This document shows, piece by piece, positions 156-47,509 of a stretch of DNA of 64,000 bases; the stretch's first letter is position 1, and each line of letters opens with the position of its first letter. The translations under genes were made by a program, and so were the position numbers. Source of the DNA: Theocolax elegans (lineage: Eukaryota > Arthropoda > Insecta > Hymenoptera > Cerocephalidae); assembly GCA_026168455.1 (NCBI GenBank), contig CM047428.1:813501-877500 (forward strand), written 5' to 3'. The notes beneath the pieces are model-generated. The model did not search any database. It was not told the DNA's origin and saw only the letters and a program-made list of their open reading frames with translations.

Positions 156-279
156 TTGATCATAAACGAACGCTGCTCGCAGCTAACATGAAAAGTGCAC
201 AGCAAGCAGCCACCGCAAGATGTTTCCAGCCCCCGTCGATCTGGTAGTGAGCCAGAATGTACGTGCATTCTTAAATTGC

Positions 280-575
280 GGGAGGGGAGGGGTTTTTTGA
301 ATGTATGTATGTACATTCTCGAATCCGGGAGGGGAAGGGTTTGTTTCAACCCAAAAGCTATGGGGTGTTTGGCTAAGAGCTAGAACACACATACCTTGTG
401 ACTCTGGGTTATTGTGAGGGGGAGGGAGAGGGGAGGGGTTTGTTTCGAGACAAAAGCTATGGGGATTTTGGCTCAGAGCTAGAACGCACATACGTTCTGA
501 CTTTGGGTTATTGAGAGGGGGTGGGAGAGGGGAGGGGTTTGTTTCGAGCCAAAAGCTATGGGGGTTTTGGCTCAC
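280..575. repeat. 99-bp G-rich minisatellite, about 3 copies
   Basis: GGGAGGGGTTTGTTTCGAG-like segments start at 332, 431 and 530, exactly 99 bp apart, and a partial copy lies near 281. Because 99 is a multiple of three, the minus strand stays open as a 33-residue periodic frame inside a 160-codon ORF (665 to 183). That frame looks like a by-product of the repeat: it has no recognisable domain and ends in low-complexity sequence. The runs of G (GGGAGGGGAGGGG) could fold as G-quadruplexes on the plus strand. Confidence 0.8.
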
Positions 576-735
576 TTCCAGGAAGTAACTACTATTACTA
601 TACTGTATAGTAACATTTACTAAAAGTCTATTAATTTTTACAACAATTTTTGTAATATTTACCAATTCACCAATTTCCGTAAATTTTACTATACATTGTT
701 GTAATTATTTCTTTAAATTTTTTCTCGGTGTGTAC
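575..735. mobile_element. MITE-like remnant with CACYGAGAAAAA end
   Basis: The right end reads TTTTTCTCGGTGTGTA, the inverse of the TACACYGAGARAAAT end seen at 42098, 55356 and 63488. The interior is rich in TTACTA/TAGTAA words, as in the other copies. The left terminus is not clear and may be lost. Confidence 0.35.
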
Positions 736-31585: not shown

Positions 31586-32334
31586 CTAGGGGGGCCGAGC
31601 CCCCCTGCGCGCGCATCGCGCGCAAGTTTCTGTTCTCAGGCTGCGCCTAGAAATTACAATGTTATTAATAATATGTAAACGTTAATCATTTCTTTTTTTT
31701 AATAATTAAATAAATTAAGAAAAATTAAGAAAAAAGTAATTATAATATTTGAAAAGACAAATATATTTAAGTAATATAAAATCAATATATTCTTAGAATT
31801 CGCGGACACAATAAATTCGTTATGTTTATTTAACGTTCAAGTCCAAATTTTTCAAGTTTAAAAACAAAGTTTTTTGTTTAATTTTATTTAAAAATTTTAA
31901 TTAAATTTTAATTTAAAATTTTAGAATAATTTGGACATATTGAAAACATGCTTTACAGGGTTTGACGTTTAGATTATTTTAAAAATTTTATTTTTGTGTG
32001 TGGTAAATATTTTTTACTGTTTTATATTTTTATATCAAATTTTGTTATAAAAATATTAGTTTTTTTAATATATAAAACTTTTTATTATAATTCTTTTTTT
32101 TTATTCGATATTTTGTATTAAAAAAAAATTTGAAAATCAAATTGGGATACGGAATGCTGATGGCACTATTTAAACGGACAATAAATATAACGGATAGTTA
32201 GTTTATTTATTTTATTGTGTATATAAAATTATGTATATACATTATGTATATATATATGTATATTACGTATACACATAGTTTTTATATGATTTTCATGAAG
32301 TTTTACTGTATGATAATGATATTAGTTATTCTAA

Positions 32335-34688
32335 TATAGTTCAGTGAGCATTACAGGATGAATAGCAGAAGCTCTTGTCCAGTATTTGTCCAATGTTGGC
32401 AGGGTTTGCAAATACTAAGAAATATAAAACTATTTTGGATGGTAAATAATTTTTATTTATTACTAGTTAATTTATTATTGGATAGAGTTTATATTTTATT
32501 TATATTTGAAAAGATTAAGTTGCCGGGTAAGTTGTTAATACTAGTAATATTTATTTTTTTAACATTTTATTATATTTTAAATTATACATTATAATTAAAT
32601 ATTAAAGATAATTTATATAAGATAATTAGGCAATTACAGGAGTTAATTCACCTACTAGTCAATTTTAATATAAGAAGTAACAATGTAGTAACTGGAACAA
32701 TAATGGTTCAATTCAACATAACCACGAGCCTCTTGTTTGGTATTGGGGATAGTTTTGGCGATGTTTAATCTTTCTCAAGGTTGATCTGTATACATTAACG
32801 GTTTGTAACATTTTATTATTACATTTTTATTTATTTTAAATTACATTAAGTTTGCATTTAATGTTGTATTTATTATTTTACTATTAAAGTTCTTATTATG
32901 TAATAATAAATACAATAATTTAAAAGAACGGCACTTATAATTATTAAGACCGAGAAACATATTCAGTGTAAATATATAAATTCACATAGATATTAATTTT
33001 GAAATAAGCTTATAGAATTTATAATTAAGCACAGTATAATTTTATTTAACATATATAACAATTGTTAAATTATGTAATTATGCAATATTAATTAAAGTGT
33101 TTTTGCGAACATCATTAAGATTTTCAATCCATTAACTGATGTTTAATATGTTATTTCTAACAACTTTTATTACTTAATGTGATATTTTTTATGTTTTGAA
33201 TATAGCTTTATTTTCTATTACAATATAATAGGTTTTTCTTTTTATTTTATATTTACAGAAGTAGTGCTGATACAAGTTCAAACGAAGGTTTCTTAGCTAG
33301 TATAGTTACGGTGGTGCTCCGCAATCATTGCCAACGTTCCAACATCCTAGTCATTCGTTTTGAAAGTAAACGGTTTCACTCAACAAGTCATAAATATCAT
33401 TCACGTTGTTTAAAAGGTAAGATATTAAAAAACCTTGAATTTACTTTTTGTAACTAAGTTATAAATTCTTGATGTGATGATGATTATTTAATATGTTTTC
33501 TTTTCTTAGCTAAAGAAATCATGTTGATATTAATCATGTTGTTATATTCATTATTTATAAAATTTACATAAAGTCATTCACTTTAGAATTCATGGAATCT
33601 CTTTTTATTTCAGAGCGTAAAAACTTGGTATAGAGAAGTTACAAGAGGTGAACACACTCTTCCAATTTTGGTCATTTTTCTTAAAGGAGAATTTCAATTG
33701 CACTATGTACGAAGAGTTTAGGACAATAGCTTATGAAGATGTATGTGAAGGATATTGTTATGGGTTTAAGTGTAAGTGTCTGTTTTGATTTTATAATTAC
33801 GGTATAGAACAAAATTCAGACCACAACTTTATAAAGATTTTCAAGTGGAAACAGTGAAAAATTATAAAAGTGGTACGTGCATTTATTACATAAGATATAT
33901 TCAGAATTTTTAGATAGAAATTGTATTTTACGGTACAAATAAAATTTATACTTTGAAATTGTTATATTAAAATATTTATTAAAAATCTTAAGATAGATTA
34001 CAATGTAATTGTCTATTAACAGGTATATTATTTTATACATACATATATTATTTTTTTAGAAAGAAAAGTATGGCTTAAACATTTTTGGAGAAGGAGAAGG
34101 AGAGTATAAAACATTTTTAAATTGTCCTTTGTACATCAAAAGTATTGTAATGTAAGTTTTTATTATAGCATAAAAGAAAATAATTTTTTACTTTTTGTAA
34201 AATAATTGTAAAATAATTCATTTATTTTAAAGATGAGTATGAAAGTGTAGTGCATTTAAATGATGAAGTCATACTAGTTGGGTACCTGAATTTCAAAAAA
34301 GTACGCCTTCAAAACAAAAATGTTAGATAGGAATCATTTTTGTAACAATGATAATAATTTCAATATTTATTTTTCATTTTTTACATAAATATAATTAATT
34401 TTAGAATGGTGTACAAAATTTGACACTTCAAGAAAGACTGAAAAATTGGCGGTTAAGGCGACTTGACTATATTTCTGAAATAGTTGGACCAGATTTACAA
34501 GATGGTAGCAATTTATCTGATGACGAAAATGATGAACCGGAGAAAGATATTAAAGACTTACATATAACAAATACTGATAAAAGAAAATGATATTACATCA
34601 ACAATAATTATACAATAGAAGTCAACTTTTTAACGTTTTTTCATATTTTTTTGATTACTTTAACCGATTTTCTATGTTTATCTTCGAA
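32335..34688 (+). repeat. 2.35-kb direct repeat, copy 1 (LARP1-derived)
   Basis: It starts TATAGTTCAGTGAGCATTAC and ends TATGTTTATCTTCGAA, and is repeated at 35954-38324. It contains decayed exons and introns of a LARP1-type gene. Copies differ mainly by one-base indels. Confidence 0.85.
33259..34590 (+). pseudogene. larp: LARP1-type DM15 region, decayed copy 1
   Basis: LARP1 proteins bind mRNA 5' ends through a C-terminal DM15 region. Exon A (33259-33416, after TTTACAG, before GTAAGA) holds the family string around FQHPSH and HHKYHS, but a one-T loss breaks the frame. Exon B (33614-33872) encodes, across a frameshift and a TGA, the helical repeats with NTLFQFWSFFLK, YEEFRTIAYED and KFRPQLYKDF-like text. 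Exon C (34060-34151) keeps YGL then KHFW in shifted frames. The last exon (34405-34590) is open to a TGA and ends in the acidic LSDDENDEPEKD tail. Intron junctions are intact, so this is a DNA-level copy and not a retrocopy. Confidence 0.75.
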
Positions 34689-35953
34689 GACGATTACAAG
34701 TGCCAAGTCGAGGATTATCGAGTTGGTCACGAGAATCGTCGGCGGCCATAAGAGAAGAGGCATAATAGCTAAAGCCGTCTTTACGGCTACAGCTAGAATG
34801 CAGGCTCAAAAGAGAAGTAGAGAGGGCCCCAAAGCCCCCCCGAGGTCTCTAAGAGCCGCAAGAAGAAGAAGCCTCGGAAGGAGGTACCACCACGTGGCAC
34901 GGACAAGGAGCAATCCAAGTCCGCGTCAGTGGCGGGGAAAAAGCCGACAGTCAAGTCGGGACAGGCGCCTCTTGATAGGAGAAAGCGCCAGATGGCGCCG
35001 GTATCCACCCTGGTGGTAACTGTCGCGAGGGACCGTACGTTTGCTGAAGTCTTGGGGAAGCTCCGAAAGGAAGTCAACCCGGACGACAGCGGCGCCCAGG
35101 TTCTGAGCGTACGGCCAACAGGGCGGGGAGATGTCCTGCTCCGGCTGGGCAAGAAGACGGACGCAACAGCATTCGCTGAGAAAGTCCGTATGGCTACTGA
35201 AGGGATGGGAGAAGTTAGGATCCGAGATCGAAGGGTGACCCTGGAGATCAGAGACCTGGACGCTCTCACAACGAGGGACGAAGTGGTAGCGGCCCTAGAT
35301 AAAGTTCTCGCGTCTCCGCCTCAGAGCCGAGAGGTGAAGCTTTTGGGTCCCAACCGCAATCAACAGAAGACAGCCATCGTGAAGCTGGATCACGAGAGCG
35401 CTGACAGGCTGAAGTCGATGCGGCATCTCTGCGTCGGCTTCGTAAGCTGTCGCATTCGGGATCGAGTCTTGGTCGAGAGGTGCTATCGGTGCCTAGACTT
35501 CGGCCACACGAAACGGAATTGTAAGGGAGTGGACAGGTCCTCGTCGTGCTACAAGTGCGGCGAGCCTGGACACAACCTTAAGAATTGCAAGAGCGCTCCC
35601 AAATGCTTTCTTTGTCCATCAAAGGATGCTGAGGGAGTGTCTCACGTGGCGGAGTCCGGAGCCTGTGCCACCTTTAGGCGCGCGCTCGATACCGCCCGAA
35701 AGGCCGCTTCACGATAAGTGGCAGTCTCAACGTGGGAGGATAGAATAAGGAACGAATGACGCATGTCACAAGACACGCCTCCCAGCTTGAAGTAATGTGA
35801 AAAACAGTTCCGGGCTGGGCAGGTGAAAGCGTTGGGTTTGGAGTTTTAGCCGGTAAGAATCCGGCACTGGCGACGAGTGCGGACCCTCGTCGTCGTCTTA
35901 TGTAAGATTTCTCCAGTTTCCCACGAGAAAAAAAAAAAAAAAAAAAAAAAAAA
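34689..35953 (+). mobile_element. R1-clade LINE derivative with gag only
   Basis: The insertion lies exactly between the two 2.35-kb repeats. It has a gag-like ORF, a 3' UTR of about 210 bp (35718-35927) with the stem-like AGCCGGTAAGAATCCGGC, and a 26-nt poly(A) (35928-35953). The second ORF (endonuclease/reverse transcriptase) that normally follows gag in R1-type elements is absent, so this is a half-LINE. It is GC-rich compared with the surrounding sequence. Confidence 0.75.
34929..35717 (+). CDS. R1-type LINE ORF1 (gag), zinc-knuckle nucleic-acid binding protein, 5' frame broken
   Basis: ORF1 proteins of R1-group LINEs coat the element RNA. The frame given has 262 codons. Residues 25-140 form the basic/alpha-beta region, followed by three C-terminal zinc knuckles: CYRCLDFGHTKRNC, CYKCGEPGHNLKNC, and a third starting CFLC with a longer spacing (residues 185-250). 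The true reading frame extends upstream through a Lys-rich stretch (KSRKKKKPRKE at about 34850-34890). Near 34835-34841 a run of seven C separates it from the frame holding MQAQKRSREGPKAPP; one base is missing there, by decay or sequencing error. Met at 34929 is therefore only the first Met in the intact part. The ORF stops before a non-coding 3' region. Confidence 0.85.
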   Translation: MAGKKPTVKSGQAPLDRRKRQMAPVSTLVVTVARDRTFAEVLGKLRKEVNPDDSGAQVLSVRPTGRGDVLLRLGKKTDATAFAEKVRMATEGMGEVRIRDRRVTLEIRDLDALTTRDEVVAALDKVLASPPQSREVKLLGPNRNQQKTAIVKLDHESADRLKSMRHLCVGFVSCRIRDRVLVERCYRCLDFGHTKRNCKGVDRSSSCYKCGEPGHNLKNCKSAPKCFLCPSKDAEGVSHVAESGACATFRRALDTARKAASR

Positions 35954-38324
35954 TATAGTTAAGTGAGCATTACAGAATAGCAGAAGCTCTTGTCCAGTAT
36001 TTGTCCAATGTTGGCAGTGTTTGAAAATACTAGAATAATAACTATTTTTGGATGGTAAATAATTTTTATTTATTATTTAGTTAATTTATTTATTGTATAA
36101 GATTTATATTTTATTTATTTTTGAAAATATTAAGTTGCCGTAAGTTGTTAATAACTAAGTAATATTTATTTTTTTACATTTTATTTATATTTTAAATTAT
36201 ACATTATAATTAAATTTAAAGATAATTTATATAAGATAATTATGAATTACAGGAGTAATTCACCTACTAGTCAATTTTAATATAAGAGTAACAATGGTAG
36301 TAACTGGAACAATAATGGTTCAATTCAACAATAACCACGAGCCTCTTGTTTTGTATTGGGATAGTTTTGGCGATGTTTAATCTTTCTCAAGGTTGATCTG
36401 GTATACATTAACGGTTTGTAACATTTTATTATTACATTTTTTAATTTATTTTAAATTACATTAAATTTGCATTTAATGCTTGTATTTATTATTTTACTAT
36501 TAAAGTTCTTATTATGTAATAATAAATACAATAATTTAAAAGAACGGCACTTATAATTATTAAGACCGAGAACATATTCAGTGTAAATATATAAATTACA
36601 TAGATATTAATTTTGAAATAAGCTTATAGAATTTATAATTTAAGCACAGTATAATTTTTATTTAACATATATAACAATTGTTAAATTATGTAATTATGCA
36701 ATATTAATTAAAGTGTTTTGCGAACATCATTAAGATTTTCAATCCATTAACTGATGTTTAATATGTTATTTTCTAACAACTTTTATTACTTAATGTGATA
36801 TTTTTTATGGTTTTGAATATTTAGCTTTATTTTCTATTACAATAGTAATAGGTTTTTCTTTTTATTTTATATTTACAGAAGTAGTGCTGATACAAGTTCA
36901 AACGAAGGTTTCTTAGCTAGTATAGTCACGGTGGTGCACCACAATCATTGCCAACGTTCCAACATTCTAGTCATTCGTTTTTGAAAGTAAACGGTTTCAG
37001 TCAACATCATAAATATCATTCACGTAGTTTAAAAGGTAAGATATTAAAAAACCTTGAATTTACTTTTTGTAACTAAGTTATAATTCTTGATGTGATGATG
37101 ATTATTATAATATGTTTTCTTTTCTTAGCTAAAGAAATCATGTTGATATTAATCATGTTGTTATATTCATTATTTATAAAATTTACATAAAGTCATTCAC
37201 TTTAGAATTCATGGAATCTCTTTTTATTTTAGAGCGAAAACAACTTGGTATAGAGAAGTTACAAGAGGTGAACACACTCTTCCAATTTTGGTCATTTTTC
37301 TTAAAGGAGAATTTCAATTGTAGTATGTACGAAGAGTTTAGAACAATAGCTTATGAAGATGTATGTGAAGGATATTGTTATGGGTTTAAGCGTTTAAGTG
37401 TCTGTTTTGATTTTATAATTACGGTATAGAACAAAAATTCAGACCACAACTTTATAAAGATTTTCAAGTGGAAACAGTGAAAAATTATAAAAGTGGTACG
37501 TGCATTTATTTACATAAGATATATATTCAGAATTTTTAGATAGAAATTGTATTTTACGGTACAAATAAAATTTATACTTTGAAATTGTTATAATAAAATA
37601 TATTATTAAAAGATCTTAAGATAGATTACAATGTAATTGTCTATTAAGAGGTATATTATTTTATACATACATATATTATTTTTTTAGAAAGAAAAGTATG
37701 GCTTAAACATTTTTGGAGAAGGAGAAGGAGAGTATAAAACATTTATTTAATTTGTCCTTTTGTACATCAAAAGTATTGTAATGTAAGTTTTTATTATAGC
37801 ATAAAAGAAAATAAATTTTTACTTTTTGTAAAATAATTGTAAAATAATTCATTTATTTTAAAGATGAGTATAAAGTGTAGTGCATTTAAATGATGAAGTC
37901 ATACTAGTTGGGTACCTGAATTTCAAAAAAGTACGCCTTCAAAACAAAAATGTTAGATAGGAATCATTTTTTGTAACAATGATAATAGTTTCAATATTTA
38001 TTTTTCATTTTTTACATAAATATAATTAATTTTAGAATGGTGTACAAAATTTGACATTTCAAGAAAGACTGAAAAATTGGCGGTTAAGGCGACACTTGAC
38101 TATATTTCTGAAATAGTTGGACCAGATTTACAAGATGGTAGCAATTTATCTAATGACGAAAATGATGAACCGGAGAAAGATATTAAATAGACTTACATAT
38201 AACAAATACTGATAAAAGAAAATGATATTACATCAACAATAATTATACGATAGAAGTCAACTTTTTAACGTTTTTTCATATTTTTTTGATTACTTTAACC
38301 GATTTTCTATGTTTATCTTTGAAA
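35954..38324 (+). repeat. 2.35-kb direct repeat, copy 2 (LARP1-derived)
   Basis: It begins TATAGTTAAGTGAGCATTAC directly after the LINE poly(A) and is homologous to 32335-34688 throughout. Formally the two copies flank the retroelement like an exceptionally long target-site duplication. Confidence 0.85.
36879..38225 (+). pseudogene. larp: LARP1-type DM15 region, decayed copy 2
   Basis: Better preserved than copy 1. Exon A (36879-37035) reads GGAPQSLPTFQHSSHSFLKV then FSQHHKYHSRSLK and ends at GTAAGA. Exon B (37233-37495) continues in phase with ERKQLGIEKLQEVNTLFQFW and YEEFRTIAYEDVCEGYCYGF. An 8-bp insertion and a TGA (in place of an expected Arg codon) precede FYNYGIEQKFRPQLYKDFQV, and the exon ends at GTACGT. 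These strings follow LARP1 DM15 order closely. Exon C (37688-37792) and the last exon (from 38036) are frame-disrupted. A preceding exon may lie at 36253-36400. Lesions are few and some could be sequencing errors, but the first DM15-external part of the protein (La module) is absent. Confidence 0.8.
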
Positions 38325-44686: not shown

Positions 44687-44699
44687 AATAAAATTACAT
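44687..44699 (+). repeat. left target-site duplication of the retrozyme-like array
   Basis: AATAAAATTACAT, repeated exactly at 47497-47509 on the other side of the array. Confidence 0.75.
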
Positions 44700-44916
44700 G
44701 TTATATTAAATTTTTAACGGTCTGTAACGAGCCAGAATATATAAATATTCATAATCATTAGTCCATGGTGTGCTACAAATTTGCAGCCTCTACACCAAGT
44801 TCGATGAGTATAGAAATTTTAATTCTGGAGACTAAAAATATTGATGTGGAAATAAAAATTATTATAAGATAACATTAAATATAAATTTAAAGAAAGTGTA
44901 TGATAAAATTGTAATG

Positions 44917-44980
44917 AATGTTTCGACCACAATTGCCAGTTGGTCTCATCAGTAAGGACTGGCAATCTACCTTAGACATT
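44917..44980 (-). ncRNA. type III hammerhead ribozyme, monomer 1
   Basis: Minus strand from 44980: stem III 5' strand AAUGU; cleavage triplet GUC; stem I UAAGG / CCUUA around a 12-nt loop; core CUGAUGA; stem II GACC / GGUC around a 13-nt loop; core GAAA, whose last A opens stem III strand ACAUU. All conserved core positions are present and all stems pair perfectly (5, 5 and 4 bp). Loop I holds AUUGCCAGU and loop II its exact complement ACUGGCAAU, allowing a 9-bp kissing interaction. Predicted cleavage falls between the complements of 44975 and 44974. Confidence 0.88.
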
Positions 44981-45413
44981 GAATATAGAAATTATATCGA
45001 AATAGACCAAGAGCAATACTATTGAATGGGGTATATATATACATTTAGAAGACTTTATCACTTACATGTATTCAAAACCAAGAAAAAACCCCTAGTGGAT
45101 AAAGTTGAAAACAATCAATATTGTCTTGGGTAGGCGCAAAAATGACCACACACGCCTAAATAAGATTTTAAAGAGTAATACGCTCGTGAATTTTATGTTA
45201 TATTAAATTTTTAACGGTCTGTAACGAGCCAGAATATATAAATATTCATAATCATTAGTCCATGGTGTGCTACAAATTTGCAGCCTCTACACCAAGTTCG
45301 ATGAGTATAGAAATTTTAATTCTGGAGACTAAAAATATTGATGTGGAAATAAAAATTATTATAAGATAACATTAAATATAAATTTAAAGAAAGTGTATGA
45401 TAAAATTGTAATG

Positions 45414-45477
45414 AATGTTTCGACCACAATTGCCAGTTGGTCTCATCAGTAAGGACTGGCAATCTACCTTAGACATT
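45414..45477 (-). ncRNA. type III hammerhead ribozyme, monomer 2
   Basis: Same sequence as in monomer 1, 497 bp downstream; core, stems and loops unchanged. Cleavage at both this and the neighbouring site would release a 497-nt linear RNA with ends suited to circularisation. Confidence 0.88.
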
Positions 45478-45910
45478 GAATATAGAAATTATATCGAAAT
45501 AGACCAAGAGCAATACTATTGAATGGGGTATATATATACATTTAGAAGACTTTATCACTTACATGTATTCAAAACCAAGAAAAAACCCCTAGTGGATAAA
45601 GTTGAAAACAATCAATATTGTCTTGGGTAGGCGCAAAAATGACCACACACGCCTAAATAAGATTTTAAAGAGTAATACGCTCGTGAATTTTATGTTATAT
45701 TAAATTTTTAACGGTCTGTAACGAGCCAGAATATATAAATATTCATAATCATTAGTCCATGGTGTGCTACAAATTTGCAGCCTCTACACCAAGTTCGATG
45801 AGTATAGAAATTTTAATTCTGGAGACTAAAAATATTGATGTGGAAATAAAAATTATTATAAGATAACATTAAATATAAATTTAAAGAAAGTGTATGATAA
45901 AATTGTAATG

Positions 45911-45974
45911 AATGTTTCGACCACAATTGCCAGTTGGTCTCATCAGTAAGGACTGGCAATCTACCTTAGACATT
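45911..45974 (-). ncRNA. type III hammerhead ribozyme, monomer 3
   Basis: Identical ribozyme in the third monomer; no change in core or pairing. Confidence 0.88.
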
Positions 45975-46407
45975 GAATATAGAAATTATATCGAAATAGA
46001 CCAAGAGCAATACTATTGAATGGGGTATATATATACATTTAGAAGACTTTATCACTTACATGTATTCAAAACCAAGAAAAAACCCCTAGTGGATAAAGTT
46101 GAAAACAATCAATATTGTCTTGGGTAGGCGCAAAAATGACCACACACGCCTAAATAAGATTTTAAAGAGTAATACGCTCGTGAATTTTATGTTATATTAA
46201 ATTTTTAACGGTCTGTAACGAGCCAGAATATATAAATATTCATAATCATTAGTCCATGGTGTGCTACAAATTTGCAGCCTCTACACCAAGTTCGATGAGT
46301 ATAGAAATTTTAATTCTGGAGACTAAAAATATTGATGTGGAAATAAAAATTATTATAAGATAACATTAAATATAAATTTAAAGAAAGTGTATGATAAAAT
46401 TGTAATG

Positions 46408-46471
46408 AATGTTTCGACCACAATTGCCAGTTGGTCTCATCAGTAAGGACTGGCAATCTACCTTAGACATT
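46408..46471 (-). ncRNA. type III hammerhead ribozyme, monomer 4
   Basis: Identical ribozyme. The 2-bp deletion of this monomer lies outside the motif, in the TATATA run near 46523. Confidence 0.88.
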
Positions 46472-46902
46472 GAATATAGAAATTATATCGAAATAGACCA
46501 AGAGCAATACTATTGAATGGGGTATATATACATTTAGAAGACTTTATCACTTACATGTATTCAAAACCAAGAAAAAACCCCTAGTGGATAAAGTTGAAAA
46601 CAATCAATATTGTCTTGGGTAGGCGCAAAAATGACCACACACGCCTAAATAAGATTTTAAAGAGTAATACGCTCGTGAATTTTATGTTATATTAAATTTT
46701 TAACGGTCTGTAACGAGCCAGAATATATAAATATTCATAATCATTAGTCCATGGTGTGCTACAAATTTGCAGCCTCTACACCAAGTTCGATGAGTATAGA
46801 AATTTTAATTCTGGAGACTAAAAATATTGATGTGGAAATAAAAATTATTATAAGATAACATTAAATATAAATTTAAAGAAAGTGTATGATAAAATTGTAA
46901 TG

Positions 46903-46966
46903 AATGTTTCGACCACAATTGCCAGTTGGTCTCATCAGTAAGGACTGGCAATCTACCTTAGACATT
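46903..46966 (-). ncRNA. type III hammerhead ribozyme, monomer 5
   Basis: Identical ribozyme in the last complete monomer. Confidence 0.88.
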
Positions 46967-47210
46967 GAATATAGAAATTATATCGAAATAGACCAAGAGC
47001 AATACTATTGAATGGGGTATATATATACATTTAGAAGACTTTATCACTTACATGTATTCAAAACCAAGAAAAAACCCCTAGTGGATAAAGTTGAAAACAA
47101 TCAATATTGTCTTGGGTAGGCGCAAAAATGACCACACACGCCTAAATAAGATTTTAAAGAGTAATACGCTCGTGAATTTTATGTTATATTAAATTTTTAA
47201 CGGTCTGTAA

Positions 47211-47496
47211 CTTACTGATGAGACCAACTGGCAATTGTGGTCGAAACATTCATTACAATTTTATCATACACTTTCTTTAAATTTATATTTAATGTTATCT
47301 TATAATAATTTTTATTTCCACATCAATATTTTTAGTCTCCAGAATTAAAATTTCTATACTCATCGAACTTGGTGTAGAGGCTGCAAATTTGTAGCACACC
47401 ATGGACTAATGATTATGAATATTTATATATTCTGGCTCGTTACAGACCGTTAAAAATTTAATATAACATAAAATTCACGAGCGTATTACTCTTTAA
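47211..47496 (+). repeat. inverted partial monomer with truncated ribozyme
   Basis: From TTACTGATGAGACC the sequence is the reverse complement of the first half of a monomer, running back past the monomer start into AAAATTCACGAGCGTATTAC. The junction cuts the ribozyme within stem I, so the cleavage strand is lost. An inversion at one end of an insertion resembles twin priming during target-primed reverse transcription. Confidence 0.85.
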
Positions 47497-47509
47497 AATA
47501 AAATTACAT
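47497..47509 (+). repeat. right target-site duplication of the retrozyme-like array
   Basis: AATAAAATTACAT, exact copy of 44687-44699. Confidence 0.75.

Follow-up and report, generated by a model that had tools for sequence, protein, structure and literature searches.

A probable retrozyme with a type III hammerhead motif and insertion ends resembling those of Penelope-like elements in Theocolax elegans

The window analyzed here is a stretch of 64,000 nucleotides from the hymenopteran Theocolax elegans (C4:813501-877500; contigs are designated C and loci L), taken from an assembly of 658 Mb in 1277 contigs. Between positions 44687 and 47509 it holds a repeated insert which a first-pass annotation, made from the letters alone, had described as a putative retrozyme of five tandem monomers. 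Tandem Repeats Finder placed the repeat at 44698-47211, with a period of 497, 5.1 copies and 99% matches. Five head-to-tail units (44700-47182; 497, 497, 497, 495 and 497 bp) lie on the minus strand, and the insert has the exact 13-bp duplication AATAAAATTACAT on both sides. The array of near-identical minus-strand monomers inside a duplication is therefore present as annotated, with one unit of 495 bp, and is not the whole insert as had been supposed, since an inverted piece of 289 bp (47211-47499) had been overlooked. This piece is 100% complementary to stretches of the array; it has the CTGATGA..GAAA sequences of the ribozyme and lacks the cleavage site. The orientation flips at 47211, so the insert is built head-to-head rather than as a simple array. 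No open reading frame (ORF) with reverse transcriptase (RT) and GIY-YIG domains was found in the insert stretch, where the longest ATG frame has 35 aa, in agreement with the lack of coding capacity reported earlier. The unit has a G+C content of 30%. Four of the five monomers are identical, and relative to the family consensus all five carry 8 differences in common, none at intermediate frequency, which is consistent with the recent insertion that had been proposed. The features are collected in Table 1, in which units are numbered q1-497 in the ribozyme sense, with q1 at window base 45196.

Table 1. Features of the insert and its flanks (window coordinates).
Feature	Position	Strand	Remarks
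Left target-site duplication AATAAAATTACAT	44687..44699	.	last 2 nt (AT) may belong to the element too
Retrozyme monomer 1, 497 bp	44700..45196	-	site A (q497/q1) at the left edge, an RNA 3' end without tail
Type III hammerhead motif, monomer 1	44915..44982	-	stems of 5 bp (helix I), 4 bp (II) and 4 bp (III)
Retrozyme monomer 2, 497 bp	45197..45693	-	
Type III hammerhead motif, monomer 2	45412..45479	-	RF00008
Retrozyme monomer 3, 497 bp	45694..46190	-	
Type III hammerhead motif, monomer 3	45909..45976	-	RF00008
Retrozyme monomer 4, 495 bp	46191..46685	-	2-nt deletion within a TA run
Type III hammerhead motif, monomer 4	46406..46473	-	RF00008
Retrozyme monomer 5, 497 bp	46686..47182	-	
Type III hammerhead motif, monomer 5	46901..46968	-	RF00008
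29-bp stub of a sixth monomer (q469-497)	47183..47211	-	stops at the head-to-head junction
Inverted partial copy, 289 bp (q241-497 and q1-32)	47211..47499	+	site B at the right edge, an RNA 3' end with tail
32-nt tail spanning site A to site B	47468..47499	+	at the right outer end only
Right target-site duplication AATAAAATTACAT	47497..47509	.	first 3 nt overlap the element end

The hammerhead claimed for every monomer was sought with the type III model of Rfam (Hammerhead_3, RF00008). In a 3-kb search in E-value mode all five monomers were matched on the minus strand with 36.3 bits and E 1.8e-5, and the match assigns the motif to type III, open at helix III. The score is below the gathering threshold (48.5), at which a scan of the entire window gave no match, so the ribozyme appears in E-value mode only. 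The stems are AAUG/CAUU for helix III, UAAGG/CCUUA for helix I and GACC/GGUC for helix II, with the cores CUGAUGA and GAAA. The predicted cut in monomer 1 follows a GUC triplet which ends at q222, its C being window base 44975 on the minus strand. Loops I and II contain 9 complementary nucleotides (AUUGCCAGU/ACUGGCAAU), which take in a putative GCCR/YGGC loop-loop pairing; few changes from this consensus complementarity occur, none is compensatory, and those in L116 and L117 break pairs. A GACT/GATC variant of helix II was considered as a compensatory change and rejected, as the pair count gives C-A and T-G.

A genome-wide search for the core motif, allowing up to 3 mismatches, gave 571 matches in 658 Mb and a single match in the reversed control, which excludes a chance hammerhead match; an exact-motif scan of viral contigs gave none. 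The 39 best-scoring loci, from a search in which 39 of 400 candidates were scored, were taken as a sample of the closest copies. They are spread over 7 large and 2 small contigs, and their 75 full units differ from the consensus in 1-23 alignment columns. The 14-nt consensus core is intact in 82 of 101 units, and 35 of the 39 loci have at least one intact unit.

Twenty-three loci were classed as head-to-head and 16 as one-sided, and in the head-to-head inserts, read in the ribozyme sense, RNA 3' ends lie at both outside edges. Of the 62 outer RNA 3' ends in the 39 loci, site A (q494-q8) accounts for 29 and site B (q21-q40) for 30, so that 59 of 62 are at one or other of two sites about 32 nt apart; the remaining 3 lie elsewhere. 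Nineteen of the 23 head-to-head loci pair an A end with a B end, one has two B ends (L044) and three have an edge elsewhere (L017, L028 and L041). When L032 and L039, which have a common flank, were counted once and L041 and L042 were taken as the two parts of an insert interrupted by another element, the independent head-to-head inserts numbered 22, of which 19 were A+B, one was B+B and two had an end elsewhere (L017, L028). Among inserts with both ends at A or B the count was 19 of 20, for which the probability of at least 19 is 2e-5 given independent ends and equal odds. The locus with two B ends, L044, has a palindromic flank and does not fit the A+B rule. The one-sided loci have 8 ends at A and 8 at B, L024-L026 being copies of one another. 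Two short inserts from a search with the tail motif, L129 and L130, also have by eye an A end opposite a B end.

Exact duplications of at least 12 nt flank 15 of the 23 head-to-head loci, 2 of these duplications lying in AT runs, whereas the same procedure gave 5 such matches among 1951 mismatched flank pairs; the duplications of L011, L036 and L038 have 9 nt. A count allowing wider offsets, from which L032 and L039 (AT runs), L044, L017, L028 and L041 were left out, found at least 13 nt in 14 of 17 loci. Copies at other loci with duplications of their own, for which the first-pass annotation had proposed a search, do therefore exist. L042 ends at B, and L041 and L042 have a 13-bp duplication in common. 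The element which splits this insert (C7:16.740-16.749 Mb) is about 5 kb long with inverted ends beginning CACGGTGTAAGAAA, and the break carries a duplication of about 10 bp of retrozyme sequence.

Such ends are familiar from Penelope-like elements (PLEs). When purified, the anole PLE cuts both strands of its target and extends them, with a preference for AT-rich sites, and its reverse transcription begins at two adjacent internal starts, the interval between them being the optional 30-40-nt tail of genomic copies (PMC11167929). A rotifer Penelope element is described with a 31-bp tail on one inverted pLTR (PMC3846280). As a control, PLE pairs were collected in this genome as GIY-YIG matches on the minus and then the plus strand within 10 kb; the list comprised 98 matches from 150 scored of 1712 candidates, and 13 pairs were present among the listed matches. 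In all seven pairs for which both ends were available one end was longer and the other shorter, by 23-32 nt in six and by 50 nt in one, and all seven had exact duplications of 13-16 bp. In two longer PLE frames the GIY-YIG domain was above the Pfam cut-off and the RT domain, at E 1e-4, was below it; many relatives of one scanned frame carry Pfam's RT domain, and the best-scoring named relatives of a PLE here are from ants and parasitoid wasps. Most of the head-to-head retrozyme inserts have inverted copies, a tail of about 32 nt at one end and a duplication, as in the autonomous PLE pairs. The head-to-head layout and the two fixed 3' ends thus favor PLE-type machinery over the LTR (long terminal repeat) type proposed for plant retrozymes, and this link does not depend on a matching type of ribozyme, because the retrozyme hammerhead is of type III.

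Judged from its sequence, the family is very probably a non-autonomous retrozyme-type element with a type III ribozyme that is inserted by a PLE-type enzyme. The description of the window element as non-coding, hammerhead-bearing, retrotransposed, dispersed and provided with its own target-site duplication is supported by the features given above. According to the proposed mechanism, unit arrays would be transcribed in the ribozyme sense and the RNA cut by the hammerhead, after which monomers, and sometimes oligomers, would be ligated into circles. A PLE-like RT/GIY-YIG protein acting in trans would cut the two strands of an AT-rich target at positions some 13 bp apart, and cDNA would be primed from both target 3' ends at the internal starts A (untailed) and B (tailed) of the retrozyme RNA. 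Copying would often make more than one turn of the template, and the cDNAs from the two sides would be joined head-to-head in the middle of the insert. We infer that the partner in trans is a PLE by kind rather than a particular element.

Several observations weigh against this reading. The hammerhead fold was calculated by RNAfold at -5.4 kcal/mol (loop-loop pairing not included) and the minimum-energy fold at -15.2; because the minimum-energy fold differs, hammerhead activity is not assured. The stems of the 101 units show no compensatory pair change, the copies varying too little for a covariation test. No duplication was found by the first procedure at L017, nor at L041 taken alone (0 nt each; 12 nt at L028). 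When the unit was compared by BLAST with 62 GIY-YIG loci, the E values were 0.01 or worse and no DNA in common was found, and the best score of a 102-nt stretch around the RT start was 43, whereas the best scores of 60 shuffled queries averaged 45.5. The PLE hammerhead cores seen here look by eye like minimal type I and not type III. Two loci, L012 and L034, mix units of different types, for which a monomer circle does not account.

Individual candidates for a partner were also discarded. L069 and L103 had seemed promising on inspection by eye, but the match in L069 sits within a longer conserved stretch, and the score of L103 was reached by 157 of 1000 shuffles. L047 (C834:582742), one of the 62 GIY-YIG loci, is not a PLE and carries a bacterial-type UvrC gene with GIY-YIG and UvrC RNase H-like domains; because of this gene on C834 the assembly is taken to include a bacterial contig, probably of a symbiont or a contaminant. 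The short, tail-bearing L128-L130, without a listed ribozyme, proved to be truncated retrozymes rather than PLEs. In several PLE families (L061, L064, L065, L070, L084, L094, L099, L103 and others), minimal hammerhead-like cores that differ from one another lie downstream of the GIY-YIG domain; they have the form CTGANGA..GAAAC, and in most cases GTC or GTT comes next.

Sequence constraint was assessed in 13 of the 19 loci L109-L127 (4 returned as loci and 15 fetched stretches), which had been picked by exact match to the motif, partly for loop variants, so that only 38 positions outside the motif were scored. Outside the ribozyme, the distant relative L123 (C3:16105740-16106340) departs from the family consensus at 106 of 426 positions (25%). 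Only 1 of the 38 unfixed ribozyme positions is changed, versus 47 of 148 in the 80-nt flanks (P 9e-6). L110 (P 0.009) and L113 (P 0.027) point in the same direction, and the other ten of the 13 were not significant. Helix III of L123 appears by eye to be re-paired with different bases, AAAGUG/CAUUUU. A ribozyme nearly unchanged in a copy that is 25-32% diverged elsewhere is, as far as such comparisons can tell, conserved against drift. The region of the RT start is also retained in L123, the 20-nt windows of q461-480, q1-40 and q61-120 being 85-95% identical, whereas identity outside the ribozyme is 40-80% elsewhere (q41-60 75%, q481-497 59%). Two hairpins are kept in L123, one around site A (GCTCGT/ACGAGC) and one after site B (TAGGCG/CGCCTA), and these are candidate signals for the reverse transcriptase. 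In an 81-nt piece the GCTCGT/ACGAGC hairpin folded no better than shuffles (z 0.08).

The lengths of the two halves of the inserts bear on the template. A linear monomer cut by the hammerhead would begin at q223 and yield cDNA of at most about 275-307 nt from A or B. In a count of 58 half-inserts, from which L025, L026 and L032 were left out as copies, 47 exceeded 310 nt and none began within 3 nt of the cleavage site. Therefore the templates were mostly circles or uncut multimers. The 5' positions of the half-inserts carry a caveat, as junction gaps of 20-29 nt are probably short unaligned pieces of the unit and some positions listed as q1 are really near q470. Judged by look and not by statistics, the cDNA halves seem to have more of their 5' ends at about q350-450, which is upstream of the RT start.

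A variant of the favored reading, in which a linear multimeric transcript serves as template and the hammerhead is dispensable for insertion, is possible, though we regard it as somewhat doubtful. The mixed units of L012 and L034 would favor a linear template, and in vitro ribozyme mutants of the anole PLE were still inserted, unprocessed RNA being called the dominant substrate (PMC11167929). Against this variant stand the conservation of the ribozyme against drift and the 8 differences common to the window monomers, which fit what one circle would give, though a uniform array would give the same. The mixing in L012 and L034 would need oligomeric or linear templates, or later rearrangement, and both circles and linear templates may be in use. 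In one half of L012 (C7:13785203-13794310) the unit types alternate A-B-A-B, an order to be expected of a dimeric circle or of a heterogeneous transcript.

Inserts resembling these could also arise if an enzyme of the LINE (long interspersed nuclear element) type copied a tandem transcript by twin priming, the 5' inversion producing the head-to-head structure; inverted 5' parts and duplications are known from twin-primed LINE inserts too, as described for L1 (PMC2837659). Under twin priming one 3' end should be fixed and the second priming site should vary, whereas here nearly all ends, 59 of 62, are at two fixed sites, and by eye the insert ends have no poly(A) or simple repeat, so this explanation appears improbable. 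A simple local satellite expansion, which the first-pass annotation had named as the alternative to a retrozyme, is excluded for the window locus. In its broader form the satellite explanation holds that the DNA is spread via recombination with the ribozyme as a passenger. It can draw on a satellite-like array on C1 (34,222,479 to at least 34,244,280), in which dozens of retrozyme units at about 497-bp spacing are preceded by two inverted units, and on the cave-cricket repeat pDo500, reported as a 500-bp hammerhead satellite (PMC2837043). Given the 39 dispersed loci with their own duplications and fixed ends, and the ribozyme conserved in a diverged copy, we consider it very improbable. The left end of the C1 array is covered by L031, which was classed as one-sided and is really head-to-head. 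The array is a possible source of multimeric transcripts.

The element with its putative PLE-type insertion resembles several known systems and coincides with none of them. Metazoan non-LTR retrozymes have type I hammerheads and units of 170-400 nt (Cervera and de la Pena 2020, PMC7229834). According to the same text, they are non-coding tandem hammerhead repeats of low G+C without visible LTRs, with duplications of more than 4 bp and many copies, and PLEs are suspected as their mobilizers; the window family is like them in these respects and differs in its type III hammerhead and 497-nt unit. With plant LTR retrozymes it shares a type III hammerhead and repeated non-coding units. The duplications of the plant elements are 4 bp, as against about 13 bp here, and their G+C content exceeds 55%, as against 30% (PMC7229834); the window family, moreover, is head-to-head, its insert ends are fixed RNA positions and no LTRs were seen. 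As far as sequence comparison goes, the family belongs to the broad class of retrozymes; it fits neither the published animal subgroup nor the plant LTR subgroup. Its likenesses to PLEs include copies lying head-to-head, a pair of RT starts separated by about 30 nt and a tail on one of the inverted ends (PMC11167929; PMC3846280), as well as an AT-rich target, tandem units and a hammerhead upstream of the RT start (PMC11167929). In contrast to PLEs it has no ORF, its ribozyme is of type III, and it has no sequence in common with the PLEs sampled here.

Pseudoknotted type III hammerheads have been described from hepatitis delta virus-like RNAs of toad and termite, from termite genomes and from Drosophila pseudoobscura (PMC7936874). 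The retrozyme motif shares with them a 5-bp first stem of helix I and the complementarity of GCCR in loop I to YGGC in loop II (here GCCA and TGGC), but lacks the extra hairpin of helix I and has 4 bp in helix II instead of their 6. The accessible part of that paper reports no such motif from structure searches in the hymenopterans examined there, and no recognizable ORFs near the termite motifs. The pDo500 satellite is likewise an insect repeat of about 500 bp with one hammerhead per unit, conserved above the rest (PMC2837043). It is presented as satellite DNA, and its account, in the text consulted, mentions neither duplications nor 3' ends.

Mobilization of animal retrozymes by PLEs has been proposed from co-occurrence, tandem copies and the type I hammerheads which both have in common (PMC7229834); the word 'inverted' does not occur in the main text of that paper. 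In the window family it is the insertion scars that bear the PLE signature. In the openly accessible literature, which was covered in part, no report of a type III animal retrozyme or of PLE-type ends on a retrozyme was found; work on insect hammerheads of type III is referred to in it as 'in preparation'. We tentatively suggest a more general two-register rule, in which, for nearly every two-sided insert, one target strand would prime at A and the other at B, 32 nt apart, so that a PLE dimer may produce both sides of an insert from a single RNA, often a circle, made by the ribozyme; such a rule might be general for PLEs and the retrozymes parasitic on them. If true, the rule of one tailed and one untailed end would explain the 'optional tail' of PLEs. 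The pairing of an A end with a B end is quantitative and can be checked in other genomes, and the question of the PLE can be tested directly in vitro.

Other features were noted in the window. A 99-bp tandem repeat of 2.5 copies (329-574) lies within a 173-codon frame (183-704, minus strand) which has no Pfam match. At 32333-34688 and 35952-38323 there are AT-rich direct repeats of 2.4 kb, 96% identical, around a G+C-richer stretch of 1.3 kb. Between them a frame at 34821-35717 encodes a gag-like zinc knuckle just under the Pfam cut-off, and the region 32333-38323 resembles an element with terminal repeats in which no polymerase is visible. The named relatives of a retroelement frame in the window are from Leptopilina and Vespa.

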